In this document: piece by piece, positions 3,607-45,564 of the stretch | Layout of the letters: each line of letters starts with the position of its first letter | Numbering within the stretch: position 1 is the stretch's first letter | Assembly: GCA_025356015.1 (NCBI GenBank) | Contig: JANXYO010000075.1 | Coordinates: 1 to 62,271, forward strand | DNA from: Spirochaetaceae bacterium | GTDB taxonomy: Bacteria; Spirochaetota; Spirochaetia; Treponematales; Rectinemataceae | Length of the DNA stretch: 62,271 bases | Direction of reading: 5' to 3' | Position numbers and translations under genes: made by a program | The notes under the pieces: generated by a model | Seen by the model: the letters and a program-made list of their open reading frames with translations, nothing else | What the model was told of the DNA's origin: nothing | Databases searched by the model: none

Positions 3607-3867
3607 GGGTCTCTCCGTATGATGGTCGTGGTTTTCCATGAAGTCATGGCGGGCCGTCAATGGCCCGGTACCTCGTCTGTGTTCCGATTCTTGTCGGGAT
3701 TGTGGCGCCTGCAGGGTAGCGAGTGGTGCGCACTCGCCGTTGGTGTCGCTGTTCAGGCGAGCAGCCATTCGTATGCTGCCCAAACCGGACTTCCTGAACG
3801 CGGCTCCATTGCCTTCATGCCGGGCCTGCGGTCGCTGACTAAAGGGCGCCGCTCGGCGCTCGTGTCA
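3607..3867 (-). promoter_or_regulatory. rho 5' leader, about 255 nt
   Basis: This is transcribed but apparently untranslated sequence between the predicted rho transcription start (about 3861) and its ATG at 3606. Close to the 5' end there is a hairpin with arms GCGCC and GGCGC around GAGC (3846-3859). The rho frame is open through the proximal 177 bases, but no start in it has a Shine-Dalgarno. In E. coli rho is autoregulated through its leader; that such control acts here is inference. Confidence 0.5.
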
Positions 3868-3896
3868 ACTATAGGCCGCCATGATCCCTCTGTCAA
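3868..3896 (-). promoter_or_regulatory. sigma70-like promoter of rho
   Basis: On the minus strand TTGACA, a 17-base spacer and TATAGT form a near-consensus promoter. It lies between the end of pncC and the rho leader. Confidence 0.8.
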
Positions 3897-21346: not shown

Positions 21347-22321
21347 TTAATTTATTTTTCCCAGGAGGCGCCAGCAGCGGTGGATCCTGGCGTCCCTGAA
21401 ATCCCTGGGGATTGTGGCCGCGCTTATGTCCTCGCAGGGGAGGGACAGTCTCGTCGCGTCCCATTTGAGTTTCCTTGAGTTCGTCGAGAAGTAGAGCCTG
21501 CCTCCGGGGGACAGGACCCTGGCGCAGGCCTCGATAAGCTCGGGCCAGTCCGAGTTGACGTCGAAGTCGGCAGGGGCGCTCTTTGAGTTCGAGTAGGTCG
21601 GGGGATCGGCCACGATCAGGTCCCAGGCCATGCCCGCCTCGGCCGCGTCGGCGAGGAAGGCCGGGACGTCGGCCTTCACGATGGGGTGGTCGCCGGTCGA
21701 AAAATGGTTCAGCTCGAGATTCCTCTGGGCCCAGGCGTTGTAGGTGTTCGAGAGGTCGACGCTCGTGACCGCGCTCGCCCCTCCGGCGGCGGCGTGCACG
21801 GAGAAGCTACCCGTGTAGGAGAACAGGTTGAGCACCCGCTTGCCAGCGGATTCGGCAGCCACCATGGCCCTCGTCGTCCTGTGGTCGAGGAAGAGGCCTG
21901 TGTCGATGTAGTCGGAGAGGTTCACCAGGAAGGAGAGGCCACCCTCGCGCACCGCGAGCTCGACGCTCTCCGCGCCGAGCTTCTCGTACTGCTCGAGGCC
22001 GCGGAGCCTGCGCCTGGTCTTGACGAAGAGCCTCCCGGGAGCGATGCCGAGGGCCTCGGACGCGGTCCGGGCCATCAGGTTGAGCCAGGCCGCCTCGAGG
22101 CCCTCGTCCTTGTCGTAGGGGCGCTCGTAGAGGGCCATGAGGAGGTAGGCTCCCGACTCGGGGCCGTAGCGGTCGACGGCAAGGGGGACTTCGGGGATGT
22201 CGTTGTCGTAGAGCCTGAGGGCCTCTATCCCCGCCGACCGGGCCCAGCGTCGCAGGTGGTGCTCGTTCTTCACGAGCCTGTTGCGGAAGTACTCGGCCTG
22301 CTGCTCGTCCTTGCTCGTCAT
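21347..22321 (-). CDS. RlmK-like class I SAM-dependent 23S rRNA methyltransferase
   Basis: A 324-residue methyltransferase resembling the RlmK half of E. coli RlmKL, which makes m7G2069 in 23S rRNA. The N-terminal block FRNRLVKNEHHLRRWARSAG and RLYDNDIPEVPLAVDRY match that domain. The SAM-binding motif is VLNLFSYTGSFSVHAA, and motif IV is DPPTYSNSKSA. It is free-standing, lacking the THUMP and RlmL domains of the fused enzyme. Its ATG overlaps the rex stop by four bases. The rRNA methylase assignment is firm; the exact target base is inferred from the E. coli homologue. Confidence 0.87.
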   Translation of the reverse strand: MTSKDEQQAEYFRNRLVKNEHHLRRWARSAGIEALRLYDNDIPEVPLAVDRYGPESGAYLLMALYERPYDKDEGLEAAWLNLMARTASEALGIAPGRLFVKTRRRLRGLEQYEKLGAESVELAVREGGLSFLVNLSDYIDTGLFLDHRTTRAMVAAESAGKRVLNLFSYTGSFSVHAAAGGASAVTSVDLSNTYNAWAQRNLELNHFSTGDHPIVKADVPAFLADAAEAGMAWDLIVADPPTYSNSKSAPADFDVNSDWPELIEACARVLSPGGRLYFSTNSRKLKWDATRLSLPCEDISAATIPRDFRDARIHRCWRLLGKIN

Positions 22322-22968
22322 TTGGCCAGGATGCGGGTCTTGCGGTTCTGCATCATCACGGAGAGGAGGGCGTAGCCCGAGGAGAGATCCTCCCTCTGGA
22401 CGACGATCTCGTCGGGCACCTTGAGCTTGGTGTTCGTGAAGTTCCAGATGGAGCTTATCCCGGCGCGGACGAGGGTCTCGGCCGTCGCCTGGGCGAAGGG
22501 CGAGGGGACGGTCAGGATGGCGATCTCGGCCTTGAGGTCCTTGATGCCGACCTCCAGTTCCGTCATCGATCTGATGGTCACGCCGTGTATCTTGGCGCCG
22601 ACCTTCGAGGGGTCGGTGTCGAAGGCAGCGGCGATCTTGAGCCCATGGAGCTGGAATTCCTGGTAGCCCATGAGGGCCGAGCCAAGGTTTCCCGCCCCGA
22701 CGAGGATTGCCTCGTGGGACTCGTCCCAGCCGAGGTAGTGCTCGATGGCCGCGATCAGGGCATCGACGGGATAGCCCTTCTTGGGCTTGCCAATGATCCC
22801 GGTGATCGCCAGGTCCTTGCGGACCTGGATGGGCTCGAGGTTGAGCTCCTGGGCGATGACCGTGCCCGAGATGTAGGGATCCCCATTGCCCTGGCACTGG
22901 CGGATTATATGGAGGTATGAGGGCAACCTTCGGACAGAAGGCGCGAACGAGACTTTCACTTTTGCCAT
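22318..22968 (-). CDS. rex: redox-sensing transcriptional repressor Rex
   Basis: A 216-residue repressor that senses the NADH/NAD+ ratio and controls fermentation and respiration genes. The N-terminal winged helix has VRRLPSYLHIIRQC and the recognition helix region QVRKDLAITG. The Rossmann domain has the dinucleotide loop VGAGNLGSAL, and the domain-swap helix lies at the C-terminus. A GGAGATGAA Shine-Dalgarno and a promoter with TTGCTT, 17 bases, TATAGT precede it. It is cotranscribed with the RlmK-like methylase gene. Confidence 0.96.
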   Translation of the reverse strand: MAKVKVSFAPSVRRLPSYLHIIRQCQGNGDPYISGTVIAQELNLEPIQVRKDLAITGIIGKPKKGYPVDALIAAIEHYLGWDESHEAILVGAGNLGSALMGYQEFQLHGLKIAAAFDTDPSKVGAKIHGVTIRSMTELEVGIKDLKAEIAILTVPSPFAQATAETLVRAGISSIWNFTNTKLKVPDEIVVQREDLSSGYALLSVMMQNRKTRILAK

Positions 22969-23986: not shown

Positions 23987-24733
23987 CTAAGGCCCAGGCT
24001 CCGCCCCGCCGCCCATCTCGCTCAGGTATTTCCAGTATCGCTCCGGCATCAACCGTCTGCGCAGGAGCGGACTGGCCCGGCCGGGATTCCCGATGATGCC
24101 GAAGTAGCGCCGCCAGAGATCCCTCGCCTCATCCGCCCCTCCTCCGGGCAGGAGGGAGAGGACCTCCTCTCCCTCGCGCAGCGATGTGCGGCCAGCCCTC
24201 CTCTCCGCGGCCAGCAGCCGGCCCATATCCACGATTGCGTAGGGTGTAGCGCCAAATCGAAGGGCGAAACGCGGCATCAGGGCCGAGAGGATGTTGTGGT
24301 CGCTCTCGATGATGGCGGCGTAGAGGCCGTCGCGGCGGGGCGAGAAACGGGCGAGGCCGGTGAACCTGTCGATCTCGCGGTCGACCCTGGCGCGGGCGGA
24401 GCTTAGGGAGCGGACTGCCCGATTCGAGTAGTCCTCGAGGAAGCAGCTGCCCCTGGACCGGGTTTCCTGGATCACCAGCCGGAGCTCGTCCACAAGTCCT
24501 TCCTCGCTCATCCAGGTCTTCACCACCAGGTCGAGGAGGCGGGGGGAGATGGCGCGCAGCTCCCGAACCGCGCCCCCCGGATCGAAGCCTAAATCACAGC
24601 CCTGGGCCCCGGGGCTCCGAGGTTCGGGACCGAAGAGCTCACCCTGCGGGGCCACTTGAGGGGAATCCGGTGCGCCCTCACCAAGGGCGAGGGCGAGGAA
24701 GCTCTCGAACTCCACGGACAAACTGGCTTTCAT
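23987..24733 (-). CDS. DUF4130 / TIGR03915 family protein, partner of a radical SAM enzyme
   Basis: A 248-residue protein of the family annotated as a putative DNA metabolism protein (TIGR03915, DUF4130). It usually lies next to the radical SAM protein TIGR03916, as here. Recognisable blocks are GSCFLEDYSNRAVRSLSSAR, FSPRRDGLYAAIIESDHNIL and the C-terminal LWRRYFGIIGNPGRASPLLR with WKYLSEM. The start at 24733 is inside the radical SAM stop codon (ATGA overlap); the further upstream frame is a shadow. A role in DNA modification or repair is suggested by annotation of the family, not by direct data that I know of. Confidence 0.86.
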   Translation of the reverse strand: MKASLSVEFESFLALALGEGAPDSPQVAPQGELFGPEPRSPGAQGCDLGFDPGGAVRELRAISPRLLDLVVKTWMSEEGLVDELRLVIQETRSRGSCFLEDYSNRAVRSLSSARARVDREIDRFTGLARFSPRRDGLYAAIIESDHNILSALMPRFALRFGATPYAIVDMGRLLAAERRAGRTSLREGEEVLSLLPGGGADEARDLWRRYFGIIGNPGRASPLLRRRLMPERYWKYLSEMGGGAEPGP

Positions 24734-26001
24734 GGGAAGGCAAACTCCATCTGGCTCTCTACCGTCCGGCCGGGGCCAGGCTTGGAGGCGCCAGGGACCT
24801 CCCGCGGCCCCTCGGCGAGGAGGAGACGCAGGCTCTGCTCCTCGGGCGGGGCGCAAAGGGGCCTCCCGCCTGCCGAGAGGAACCAGCGGGCCTTCTTCAT
24901 GACGATGCCTAGCTTGCCGAGCTCGGCAGGCCCCAGGCTGACCTGCCTCCGGGTGGCTACTATTCGCCGCGCACCCCTGAGGCCTATTCCCGGGACCCGC
25001 AGGAGCTCGCCCAAATGGGCGGAGTTGACGTCCAGGGGAAAGAAATCCCGATGGGCGAGGGCCCAGGCGACCTTGGGATCGACGTCGGTCGGGAAATTGC
25101 CGTCGGCCTCCTGGACAAGCTCCTCAGCCTTGAAGCCGTAGAACCTGAGGAGCCAGTCGCACTGGTAGAGGCGGTGTTCCCTGAGGAGGGGAGGGGCCGC
25201 CGCCGCAGGCAGCCGGGGATCGGGCGCGACAGGCATGAAGGCCGAGTAGTAGACCCGTCTGAGGGCGTAGCGGCGGTAAAGGGACGAGGCGAGGAGGATT
25301 ATCGTGCGGTCGCTCTCGGGACTCGCTCCGACTATGAGCTGGGTGCTCTGACCAGCGGGGGCGAAGTTCGGCGTATGGCGGATCCTTCGGCTGTCCCTAG
25401 TGTGCTCGGATTCGGCATCGCCCATCGCCCTCATCGCGCCGAGGATCTCGGCTCCCGACTTCTCGGGGGCGAGGCGGACGAGGCTGGCGGCCGTGGGGAG
25501 CTCGATGTTGATCGACAGGCGGTCGGCGTAGAGTCCCGCGAGGCGCAGGAGGCGCTCACCGGCACCTGGAATGGCCTTGAGGTGGATATAGCCCCCAAAG
25601 CCTGCCTCGACACGCAGGACCCTTGCGACCTCTATGAGGCGTTCCATGACGATGTCGGGATCGCTGAAGATGCCCGAGGACAGGAAGAGGCCCTCGATGT
25701 AGTTGCGGCGGTAGAAGTCAAGGGTGAGGCGCACGAGTTCGTCCACGCTAAAGCTTGTCCTGACGATGTCGGAGGAAGCGCGGTTGGCGCAATAGGCGCA
25801 GTCGTTGCGGCAGGCGTTCGAGTACAGGACCTTGAGGAGGGAGATGCAGCGCCCGTCACCCGAGAAGGAATGGCAGACCCCTGAAGGAGCTCCGGCCCCT
25901 ATCCCTCCACTGCGGGGCCGGCGATCGCTGCCGCTAGAGGCGAAGGATGCGTCGCACCGGGCCGAAGCCGCCAGGATCTCGAGTTTTTCGCCCAATTCCA
26001 T
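24730..26001 (-). CDS. putative DNA modification/repair radical SAM protein (TIGR03916-like)
   Basis: A 423-residue radical SAM enzyme. The iron-sulfur motif CRNDCAYC lies near residue 70, preceded by CISLLKVLYSN. The helix-hairpin-helix motif VPGIGLRGARRIVATRR near residue 340 is typical of DNA-binding proteins. ELPTAASLVRLAPEKS and QSTQLIVGASPESD are family-typical. The start at 26001 has no Shine-Dalgarno and lies seven bases after TATAGT, itself 17 bases from TTGCAG, so the mRNA is probably leaderless. Together with the overlapping DUF4130 gene it forms a conserved two-gene unit. Confidence 0.9.
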   Translation of the reverse strand: MELGEKLEILAASARCDASFASSGSDRRPRSGGIGAGAPSGVCHSFSGDGRCISLLKVLYSNACRNDCAYCANRASSDIVRTSFSVDELVRLTLDFYRRNYIEGLFLSSGIFSDPDIVMERLIEVARVLRVEAGFGGYIHLKAIPGAGERLLRLAGLYADRLSINIELPTAASLVRLAPEKSGAEILGAMRAMGDAESEHTRDSRRIRHTPNFAPAGQSTQLIVGASPESDRTIILLASSLYRRYALRRVYYSAFMPVAPDPRLPAAAAPPLLREHRLYQCDWLLRFYGFKAEELVQEADGNFPTDVDPKVAWALAHRDFFPLDVNSAHLGELLRVPGIGLRGARRIVATRRQVSLGPAELGKLGIVMKKARWFLSAGGRPLCAPPEEQSLRLLLAEGPREVPGASKPGPGRTVESQMEFAFP

Positions 26002-26008
26002 GCCAAGT

Positions 26009-26037
26009 ACTATACAGGCGTATGGCTTCCGCTGCAA
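26009..26037 (-). promoter_or_regulatory. promoter of the radical SAM/DUF4130 operon
   Basis: Minus-strand TTGCAG, 17-base spacer, TATAGT, then seven bases to the ATG. This is one of the clearest leaderless promoter layouts in the window. Confidence 0.75.
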
Positions 26038-26056
26038 GGGCATCGGATCCCTCGGC

Positions 26057-26086
26057 TTGACCCCGGGCGCCCGGTTTAAGTAAGCT
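26057..26086 (+). promoter_or_regulatory. promoter of the ABC-F leader
   Basis: Plus-strand TTGACC, 18-base spacer, TAAGCT. The predicted start falls at or next to the ATG of a short ORF at 26094. Confidence 0.6.
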
Positions 26087-26093
26087 TTGAGCC

Positions 26094-26201
26094 ATGCTCT
26101 GCAATCAACCGCGACTTTCCCTGAGCCTGTGCCGGCGCGTCCAGGGTGGCTCAGACCTCAGCAGGGGAAGTCCATTCGCGGAGGGTTCTGGAGATATTTG
26201 A
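26094..26201 (+). CDS. putative leader peptide of the ABC-F gene, 35 residues
   Basis: A 36-codon frame (35 residues plus TGA) begins seven bases after the -10 box, so it would be leaderless. It encodes a short Arg/Ser/Leu-rich peptide beginning MLCNQPRLSLSLCRR. Its stop is 20 bases before the stem of an intrinsic terminator at 26221. That spacing is what is expected of a ribosome-controlled attenuator. No homology supports it; the evidence is position only. Confidence 0.45.
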   Translation: MLCNQPRLSLSLCRRVQGGSDLSRGSPFAEGSGDI

Positions 26202-26220
26202 GATATTTTCATCAAACAGC

Positions 26221-26260
26221 GCCGCGCGGCTTCCATTTCGGGACCGTGCGGCTTTTTTTT
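26221..26260 (+). terminator. intrinsic terminator inside the ABC-F leader (attenuator)
   Basis: GCCGCGCGG pairs with CCGTGCGGC (one G-T) around a 14-base loop and is followed by eight T residues. No gene ends upstream on the plus strand; the only transcript it can stop is the one from the promoter at 26057. A second GC-rich hairpin, GGCCGGGG-GCAT-CCCCGGCC, follows at about 26298-26317 before the ABC-F Shine-Dalgarno. Confidence 0.8.
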
Positions 26261-26345
26261 CCCTCAGAGGGAGCCGTACACGCGGTCCTGGCAGAAAGGC
26301 CGGGGGCATCCCCGGCCGTGGCAGCGCAGCACAAAGGAGCCAGGC

Positions 26346-28277
26346 ATGCCTCTCATCGAATGCATCGACCTCTCAAAGGACTGGGCCGGAAGCCGGGTCT
26401 TCACGAAGATTTCCTTTTCCCTCGAACCGGGGCAGAAGATCGGCCTCGTGGGGCGCAATGGCTGCGGCAAGACCAGCCTCCTGCGAATCCTCGCCGGTCT
26501 TGACGATGACTACCACGGGGTCCTGCGCAGGGAGGCCTCTTCCCTCTGCGCCCTCGTTCCCCAGCGCTATGAGCCTCCTCTCTCTCTGAGCTGTATCGAG
26601 GTCCTCATGGCTCCGGTCCTGGCCCTGCGCGCCGAGCTCAGGCACCAGGAGGAGGCCTTCGCCTCGGAGGGCCCGGAATCCGACGAAAGAGGACGCGAGC
26701 TCGCCCTCAGGGCCTACGGGGAGCTCTCCTCGCGCCACGAGAGGCTCGGCGGAGAGGGGGCAGAGGAGGCTGCCCGACGCCTCCTGTCCCGGACGGGCCT
26801 CGGCAAGGTGGCTGATGCCCCAGCCTCGGCCCTGTCCGGAGGGGAGAAGAATGTCCTCGCCCTCGCCCTCGCGCTGCTGGAGTCGCCCGAGCTCCTTCTC
26901 CTCGACGAGCCCGGCAACCACCTGGATTTCGCCGGCCTCTCCTGGCTCGAGGACTTTGTCCGGGGGGAGAGACGCTCCATCCTCATGGTTTCTCACAACC
27001 GCCACCTCCTTGACCGCTGCGTGGACCGCACCTTCGAGCTCGAAGGCGGGTCCCTGACCGAGTATGCAGGCGGCTGGTCGGCCTACAGGCTCGAGAAGCT
27101 CAGCCGCGCTGCCGGCCAGGGCAAGGACTGGCAGGCCGACCGCAAACGCCTGGACAGGCTCGAGGCCCTGGTGCGCCGCTTCGCCGAAATAGCCCGCGCC
27201 CGACCCGATCCCGCCTGGGGCAAGCGTCTGCGGGCACGCAGGAGTCAGCTGGAACGGGAGCGCGAGACTGCCACGGCGAGGCCCGAGCTCGGGGGCGCCA
27301 AGATGAAGGTGAGCTTCGACTCCAAGGGCTCGAAGGCCGACTATGCCCTGATCCTCAGGGGCTACAGGAAGGCCTTCGGAGAGCGAGTCCTCCTCGAGGG
27401 TGTCGACCTCGACCTCATGGTGGGAGAGAGGGCCGCGATCGTCGGGCCCAACGGCAGCGGCAAGACCTCCCTCATCCGCGACATCGTCGCCGCCGAGGGA
27501 GGCTGGGACGGGGGCGGGGCCATCCGGGTGGGCCCGAGCATGAGGATCGGCTATTGCGCCCAGGAGCAGGAGGTCTTCCGCGGCGAGCGCACGGTCGAGG
27601 AGGAATTCCGCGAGCTTGGGGCGAAGAGCGACGAGGCCTTCCGCCTCCTCAAGCGCTTCCTTTTCGAGCGGAGCGTGCTCGAGGCGAGGATCTCCTCGCT
27701 CTCGGGTGGCGAACGAAACCGCCTGCAGATTGCCCGCGCCGTGTACCTCGGCGCGAACTTCCTCATCCTCGACGAGCCGACCAACCACCTCGATATTGAG
27801 GGGAGGGAGGCCCTCGAGGAGGGCCTCGCCGATTTCGAGGGAAGCATCCTCGCTGTCTCCCACGACCGGTGGTTCCTTGAGAAGGTTGCCGAGCGCCTCA
27901 TCCTCGTCGAGGAGGGGAGGCTTGTCGCCTACGAGGGTAGCTTTGCAGAGTACTGGCGGGACCTCGGGTCGGCCTGGTCCACGCGCAAGGGAAGCTCGAT
28001 CGAGGGCAGAGTGGTCGCGGCAAGGGCCCCTGCTCGTGGGCCTTCCCCGGCCCGGAATGGCAGGGCAGGCAGAGAGGACTCAGCGGGTGACGAGCGGCGG
28101 CGCGGGATCGAGCAGAGAATCACCGAGGCCGAGGCCAGGAAGCAGGAGCTCGAGACTGCCTCGGCCAAGGCCACCGGGAGCAGGGACTATGCCCTCGCCG
28201 GCAGGCTCGCTCGTGACGCGGCCGAGCTTGGACGCAGGCTGGAACGGCTCTACGGCGATTGGGAGGCCCAGTGCTAG
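26346..28277 (+). CDS. ABC-F family ATPase
   Basis: A 643-residue cytoplasmic protein with two nucleotide-binding domains and no membrane segment, the hallmark of ABC-F translation factors and antibiotic-resistance proteins. NBD1 has Walker A GRNGCGKTS, signature LSGGEKN and Walker B LLLLDEPGNHLD, where Gly replaces the usual Thr. NBD2 has GPNGSGKTS, LSGGERN and ILDEPTNHLD. A Lys/Arg/Glu-rich linker of about 80 residues joins them, and a coiled-coil C-terminus ends the protein. An AAAGGAG Shine-Dalgarno precedes the ATG. The attenuator-like leader suggests induction when translation is disturbed, as known for vmlR- and msr-type genes. The subfamily and any drug spectrum cannot be read from sequence. 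Confidence 0.92.
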   Translation: MPLIECIDLSKDWAGSRVFTKISFSLEPGQKIGLVGRNGCGKTSLLRILAGLDDDYHGVLRREASSLCALVPQRYEPPLSLSCIEVLMAPVLALRAELRHQEEAFASEGPESDERGRELALRAYGELSSRHERLGGEGAEEAARRLLSRTGLGKVADAPASALSGGEKNVLALALALLESPELLLLDEPGNHLDFAGLSWLEDFVRGERRSILMVSHNRHLLDRCVDRTFELEGGSLTEYAGGWSAYRLEKLSRAAGQGKDWQADRKRLDRLEALVRRFAEIARARPDPAWGKRLRARRSQLERERETATARPELGGAKMKVSFDSKGSKADYALILRGYRKAFGERVLLEGVDLDLMVGERAAIVGPNGSGKTSLIRDIVAAEGGWDGGGAIRVGPSMRIGYCAQEQEVFRGERTVEEEFRELGAKSDEAFRLLKRFLFERSVLEARISSLSGGERNRLQIARAVYLGANFLILDEPTNHLDIEGREALEEGLADFEGSILAVSHDRWFLEKVAERLILVEEGRLVAYEGSFAEYWRDLGSAWSTRKGSSIEGRVVAARAPARGPSPARNGRAGREDSAGDERRRGIEQRITEAEARKQELETASAKATGSRDYALAGRLARDAAELGRRLERLYGDWEAQC

Positions 28278-43626: not shown

Positions 43627-43656
43627 TTGTCCAAGGGGGGGGAGGCAGGATATAGT
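43627..43656 (+). promoter_or_regulatory. promoter of uup
   Basis: TTGTCC, 18-base spacer, TATAGT on the plus strand, nine bases before the ATG: a leaderless layout. Confidence 0.65.
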
Positions 43657-43665
43657 CGGGGCCGC

Positions 43666-45564
<1,899 letters not shown>

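Follow-up and report, generated by a model that had tools for sequence, protein, structure and literature searches.

A putative ribosome-controlled attenuator with a long, probably leaderless leader ORF precedes an ABC-F gene in Spirochaetota

Why should a short ORF and a strong intrinsic terminator lie in front of the gene for an ABC-F ATPase in a Spirochaetaceae bacterium? The initial annotation of this locus described, on the plus strand, a promoter, a 35-codon ORF, a terminator, a second hairpin, and the Shine-Dalgarno (SD) sequence and ATG of the ABC-F gene, and proposed that ribosomes on the short ORF control the terminator. Hereafter, the window means the whole stretch of DNA analyzed (62,271 nucleotides). 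When the sequence was re-read, all of these elements were present in their places (Table 1), and seven bases were counted between the -10 box TAAGCT and the leader ATG at position 26094. The terminator stem (26221-26234/26240-26252) has a folding energy of -23.8 kcal/mol, with a z-score of -3.25 against shuffled sequences. Its T8 tract is the sole T8 run on the plus strand of the window, and the leader terminator is among five strong terminators found on both strands of the window. A simple promoter and terminator scan had picked up neither the leader promoter nor the leader terminator, because the promoter matches the consensus at 8 of 12 positions, where the limit of the scan was 9, and because one base of the terminator stem is unpaired. 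The upstream neighbor is a divergent radical SAM gene on the minus strand (24730-26043, start at 26043). Thus, it was borne out that no plus-strand gene ends at the terminator, which sits in the 5′ region of the ABC-F gene, as does the leader ORF ahead of it. The second hairpin (26298-26317) lacks a T-run, and no counterpart of it was seen in the orthologues.

Table 1. Positions of the leader elements and the ABC-F gene, numbered from the first letter of the window
Feature	Position	Strand	Evidence
Promoter: -35 TTGACC (26057-26062), 18-base spacer, -10 TAAGCT (26081-26086)	26057-26086	+	Sequence
Leader ORF, 35 codons, MLCNQPRLSLSLCRRVQGGSDLSRGSPFAEGSGDI, stop codon TGA 26199-26201, probably leaderless	26094-26201	+	Sequence; homologous leader ORFs in >30 loci
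Strand 1 (anti-antiterminator 5′ strand), GACUUUCCCUG, within the leader ORF	26113-26123	+	11 bp with strand 2, -17.1 kcal/mol; co-variation
Codons 14-18, Arg-Arg-Val-Gln-Gly, R(S/R/T)xxG motif, proposed stall region	26133-26147	+	Motif counts
Strand 2 (switch strand), CAGGGGAAGUC; family consensus RGGAKAGGUSYGYYC	26162-26172	+	Conserved in orthologues; alternative pairing with strands 1 and 3
Hairpin (26189-26198/26202-26211) whose loop is the leader stop UGA, inside the antiterminator loop	26189-26211	+	Fold
Strand 3 (terminator 5′ arm), alternative partner of strand 2	26221-26234	+	Swap test, p<=2e-5
Strand 4: terminator 3′ arm (26240-26252) and T8 (26253-26260)	26240-26260	+	Fold; orthologue terminators at the equivalent place
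SD sequence AAAGGAG of the ABC-F gene	26333-26339	+	Sequence
ABC-F ATPase, 643 aa, regulated gene	26346-28277	+	Two ABC domains, ABC_tran_Xtn; fold; tree

What kind of ABC-F is encoded here? According to Pfam, the protein has two ABC domains joined by the ABC-F linker. Its structure model (pLDDT 87.5) has the fold of a ribosome factor, and the nearest folds are those of ribosome-bound EttA, VmlR2, and PoxtA. By curated score, it does not fall into a described ARE-ABCF subfamily: the generic resistance ABC-F model NF000355 of NCBIfam gave 354 bits against a cut-off of 380, and the specific ARE models stayed far under their cut-offs. All of the plasmid ABC-F matches listed had less than 36% identity to the protein. 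In the phylogenetic tree, it belongs to a Spirochaetota clade with nested or adjacent sequences of Acidobacteriota, Chloroflexota, and Planctomycetota, apart from EttA, Vga, Msr, and OptrA. At E<=1e-110, this ABC-F occurs in 28 of the 394 genomes of the order, a patchy distribution. A second ABC-F gene of the window is Uup-like and may have almost no 5′ leader, with a TATAGT 9 bases before its ATG at 43666 (43651-43668); no attenuator was seen in front of it.

Is the leader found in relatives? The predicted recurrence was confirmed: the leader and terminator precede most of the orthologues in one Spirochaetota clade. These leaders, before orthologues of about 40-67% protein identity, have a -10 box, then the start codon of a 24-46-codon ORF with a conserved segment (consensus RGGAKAGGTSYGYYC; strand 2 in the window), and then a GC-rich terminator and its T-run; most of them also have a small hairpin where the ORF stops. 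The leader gives no match in Rfam at the gathering threshold. An RNA model was built from 19 leaders and run on the 394 genomes of the order. It gave one strong match per genome in 22 of them and recovered four leaders outside its training set (L130, L131, L142, and L143). Each match with a visible downstream gene precedes this ABC-F gene or a degraded remnant of it (L143). Elsewhere in the genomes or before other genes, the model gave only chance-level matches, and no such leader was seen before the five other ABC-F paralogues of the source genome. The presence of the leader follows the ABC-F tree, in one clade with few losses. It is absent before the orthologues L019, L020, L013, and L027; of these, L019 and L020 are Spirochaetota orthologues nested within the leader-bearing clade, yet without the leader.

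Some loci of this comparison are of interest in their own right. L013 is from a metagenome-assembled genome of Holophagaceae (Acidobacteriota) whose orthologue, which lacks the leader, is 63% identical to that of the window, and transfer or a mis-binned contig is possible. In L143 (1300-1800), the leader and terminator are kept before an ABC-F gene apparently degraded into fragments. Rex-like and methyltransferase genes lie directly upstream of the leader in L130 (28-1228) and about 3 kb off in the window (21347-22968), which hints at an old synteny. In L076, a Latescibacterota orthologue, the strand 2 consensus AGGGGATAGGTGTGTCC was found upstream of the ABC-F gene, right after a masked run of N (around 3790-3870).

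How is translation of the leader ORF started? In 25 of 32 homologous leaders, the start codon lies 6-8 bases after the end of a TANNNT box, and the gap is exactly 6 in 15 of the 32. By chance, 0.24 would be expected per position across the 32 leaders; the nominal p of 8e-24 is too strong, since the species are related. The spacing is kept though the surrounding sequence changes. With a gap of 6 bases, the usual transcription start would be the first base of the start codon itself; the gap is 7 in the window. Thus, the leader ORF is probably leaderless, and the conserved spacing lends support to the leaderless start that had been proposed from the window. Four leaders (L021, L040, L114, and L115) have no -10 box at this place and have an SD sequence instead.

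Does the RNA hold alternative pairings? In the window, GGCUUCC (26228-26234) of strand 3 can pair with GGAAGUC (26166-26172) of strand 2. For this window alone, the 2:3 duplex is no stronger than that with a shuffled strand 2 (z -0.26). The family was compared by swap tests, since RNAalifold on a plain MAFFT alignment gave a poor terminator core only, because the registers of the arms differ. Among 17 representatives of the clade, strand 2 and its own strand 3 gave -18.5 kcal/mol vs. -15.7 kcal/mol for swapped partners, and none of 50,000 permutations was as good (p 2e-5 with 13 representatives), some effect of shared ancestry being left in such tests. In a position scan for the partner of strand 3, strand 2 with a few following bases was best on average. 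The partners change together, as in AGGTCTGT/ACAGACCT of L022, GGTCTGC/GCAGGCC of L021, GGTCTGT/GCGGACC of L023, and GGAAGTC/GGCTTCC of the window. The pairing of strands 1 and 2 was supported likewise (own -17.5 vs. swapped -14.7, p<0.001), with a sharp peak 56-64 bases upstream of strand 2 that is gone on either side. Strand 2 of the window deviates from the family consensus, and both strands 1 and 3 match the changed strand 2. A sequestering hairpin directly 5′ of strand 2 was also considered and rejected (swap p=0.96); the true partner lies further upstream, in strand 1.

Folding is consistent with a switch. With the upstream RNA removed, which mimics a stalled ribosome, the 2:3 pairing is predicted for each of the 26 leaders folded; with the upstream RNA present, this pairing is weaker in 21 of the 26, and the expected pairs fall from 12.3 to 1.2 in the window. 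The antiterminator 2:3 and the terminator 3:4 exclude each other, with co-variation in the swap test behind the former. At the level of pairing, 1:2 is supported as an anti-antiterminator by the swap test and by the folding of 21 of 26 leaders, and the off state is a prediction. Co-variation of terminator and antiterminator pairs, which the initial annotation had named as a check, was thus positive, and the swap tests brought out the anti-antiterminator as well. In the window, the completed terminator (-33.7) is more stable than the antiterminator state (-26.3) by folding. Therefore, the switch must be kinetic and act during RNA synthesis, as known attenuators do.

What could the ribosome sense? 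Among the terminator-type leaders, 27 of 32 encode the pattern [KR][STR]x(1-2)G, where shuffling would give 5.3; for the SD-type leaders of sister clades, the figures are 8 of 8 and 1.2. These counts are descriptive because the pattern was defined after inspection. In most leaders, 27-30 nt separate the Arg codon of R(S/R/T)xxG from strand 2 downstream, and this codon lies between strands 1 and 2. The Arg codons vary (CGC, CGT, CGA, CGG, AGA, and AGG), as do the Ser codons (TCC, TCT, TCA, and AGC), and this synonymous variation argues for selection on the residues. For the whole leader ORF, pairwise substitution tests for purifying selection gave p values of 0.006-0.87, a weak support. Strand 2 is read in another frame in L022, L095, and L032; thus, the 3′ part of the peptide is not conserved. 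From the comparison of the leaders, it is the RNA strand and the peptide motif that are conserved, not the remaining peptide. In each of the 26 leaders measured, the ORF runs past strand 2 before it stops, and 19-35 nt separate the stop codon from the terminator stem, although the distance from strand 2 to the stop varies from 17 to 81 nt (L107 was taken from a wrong start here; its proper value is the usual 36). The stop-codon hairpin is present at the same place in most terminator-type leaders, with a variable sequence (CAGTATTTTGAATACTG in L022).

Do the sister clades use the same output? Their orthologues (L026, L041, L059, L061, L062, L075, L057, and L153) have an SD-led leader ORF of 18-20 residues with [KR][ST]xxG (MTHFFIRSAGTSIWSFRS and MKWLLYKSVGGRTLSSFRT). 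No comparable terminator was found in such leaders as L026, L041, L059, L062, and L075. By folding, the end of the ORF can pair, in several of the sister-clade leaders, with a segment that otherwise pairs with the SD sequence of the ABC-F gene; for L061, L057, and L153, little or no change in the exposure of this SD sequence is predicted. According to these models, the sister clades appear to keep the motif of the leader peptide yet switch translation of the ABC-F gene, not its transcription.

The following mechanism may be proposed. Transcription would start at or beside the leader AUG, and the leader ORF would be translated without an SD sequence. If it is not translated, strand 1 (around codons 7-10 of the ORF) would pair with strand 2, and the terminator 3:4 would form. 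A ribosome that translates the whole ORF would pass over strand 2, and the terminator would form again. A ribosome held at or just past the Arg-Arg-Val-Gln-Gly codons would sit between strands 1 and 2 and free strand 2, which could then pair with strand 3; the terminator would be blocked, and RNA polymerase would read on into the ABC-F gene. Comparison of sequences shows the elements and how they are conserved, that 1:2 and 2:3 co-vary, and where the motif and the stop codon are placed. The predicted RNA switch itself, with its mutually exclusive pairings, is highly likely, and the locus very probably carries a ribosome-controlled four-strand transcription attenuator. The recurrence of the leader and the co-varying pairings among the orthologues speak for the ribosome-controlled reading made from the window. 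In this reading, ribosomes would stall at the motif, and the transcript would be truly leaderless. The trigger would be a ribosome-targeting drug or the defect that the ABC-F repairs; induction by an antibiotic is somewhat favored, and the ABC-F may be a resistance protein. A drug class cannot be assigned from the motif, which differs from the macrolide +x+ motif.

The same RNA switch could have another input. In an autoregulatory rescue circuit, the nascent R(S/R/T)xxG peptide would stall its own ribosome and the ABC-F would relieve the stall, so that a low level of ABC-F would give antitermination and more ABC-F, with no antibiotic involved. A long leader peptide with one internal motif kept though the RNA output differs points to a peptide-specific stall, and this ABC-F falls outside the known resistance families. 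There are also precedents in the action of EttA on a leader peptide, MgtL (PMC11282234), and in MsrD, a repressor of its own expression via its leader (PMC10314930). However, the patchy occurrence (28 of 394 genomes) suits an accessory function better than a housekeeping one, and I regard autoregulation as possible but rather unlikely. Just as tentative is the idea that [K/R][S/T]xxG represents a new class of ribosome arrest signal in the ABC-F leaders of Spirochaetota, read by a terminator switch and by an SD-sequestering switch, with the arrest relieved by the controlled ABC-F. If this is true, each leader would be a built-in reporter of the natural substrate of its ABC-F.

Far less probable is an amino-acid attenuator, in which scarce charged tRNA-Arg or tRNA-Ser would stall the ribosome as in the trp and his leaders. 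The motif does keep its Arg and Ser codons at a constant distance from strand 2 (27-30 nt), but there are only one or two Arg codons and no codon run, the six Arg codons used call for different tRNAs, Ser, Arg, or Thr can follow the first Arg, and the ABC-F gene is not biosynthetic. It is hardly credible that a constitutive partial terminator merely lowers ABC-F expression beside an incidental ORF: nearly all these genomes have a strong terminator and the leader ORF is fast-evolving, but the co-variation of 1:2 and 2:3, the start spacing, the stop placement, and the peptide motif would be left unexplained. Equally improbable is a short transcript acting in trans as a small RNA or small protein, like rnTrpL/peTrpL of Sinorhizobium (PMC7298713, where attenuated leaderless transcripts can act in trans), with an ABC-F promoter downstream of 26260, since no promoter-like site was seen in 26260-26333 (in the scan that missed the leader promoter) and the RNA model finds the leader before this ABC-F only.

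How does this attenuator relate to known systems? Trp-type attenuators have a four-strand layout; the 1:2, 2:3, and 3:4 pairings and a leader ORF over the first strands are shared, but here there is no run of cognate codons, and the ribosome is proposed to stall between strands 1 and 2. The logic is like that of Bacillus subtilis vmlR (PMC9226507), an ABC-F gene with a leader ORF, an exclusive set of anti-antiterminator, antiterminator, and intrinsic terminator, and a hairpin at the antiterminator apex, where stalling frees the antiterminator. In contrast, the vmlR ORF has 3 codons (MIN) with an SD sequence, and the ORFs here have 24-46 codons, are for the most part probably leaderless, and carry a conserved internal motif. 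No sequence relation to the vmlR leader was found (no Rfam match). The leader ORFs of cplR, vmlR2, and lsaA (PMC10201436) also give stall-dependent ABC-F control, and cplR adds sequestration of the SD sequence, as proposed here for the sister clades; however, their peptides (MR[I/M], MK[L/Q], and MAGN) have 3-4 residues and are from Gram-positive bacteria. The msrDL-msrD system (PMC10314930) shares a leader peptide on which macrolides stall the ribosome, a Rho-independent terminator, an ABC-F output, and feedback by the ABC-F. It differs in its 6-residue peptide MYLIFM, which stalls at its stop codon, and in that unwinding of the terminator is ascribed to the stalled ribosome itself.

Attenuators whose sensor is a short leaderless ORF are known from S. 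meliloti trpL (PMC7298713) and from C. glutamicum ilvBNC, discussed alongside leaderless initiation (PMC11857589), and are reported for the polycysteine leaderless short ORFs of mycobacteria. Unlike the present leader, these sense amino acids, and none is known to control an ABC-F gene. In the open-access literature searched, no spirochaete case, no leaderless ABC-F leader, and no [KR][ST]xxG arrest motif was found, and the logic is vmlR-like; therefore, the present system is seen as a variation on the vmlR/msrD-type attenuators. The ribosome-sensing ABC-F attenuators of that literature are Gram-positive, with leader peptides of a few residues. The present one is set apart by the Spirochaetota host, the probably leaderless start, the long peptide with a conserved internal motif, and a four-strand switch that can be traced. 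If the motif is an arrest signal, the leader would be a ready reporter to find the drug or substrate of this uncharacterized ABC-F clade. The apparent exchange of a transcriptional for a translational output between sister clades, with the motif kept, offers an uncommon evolutionary comparison.
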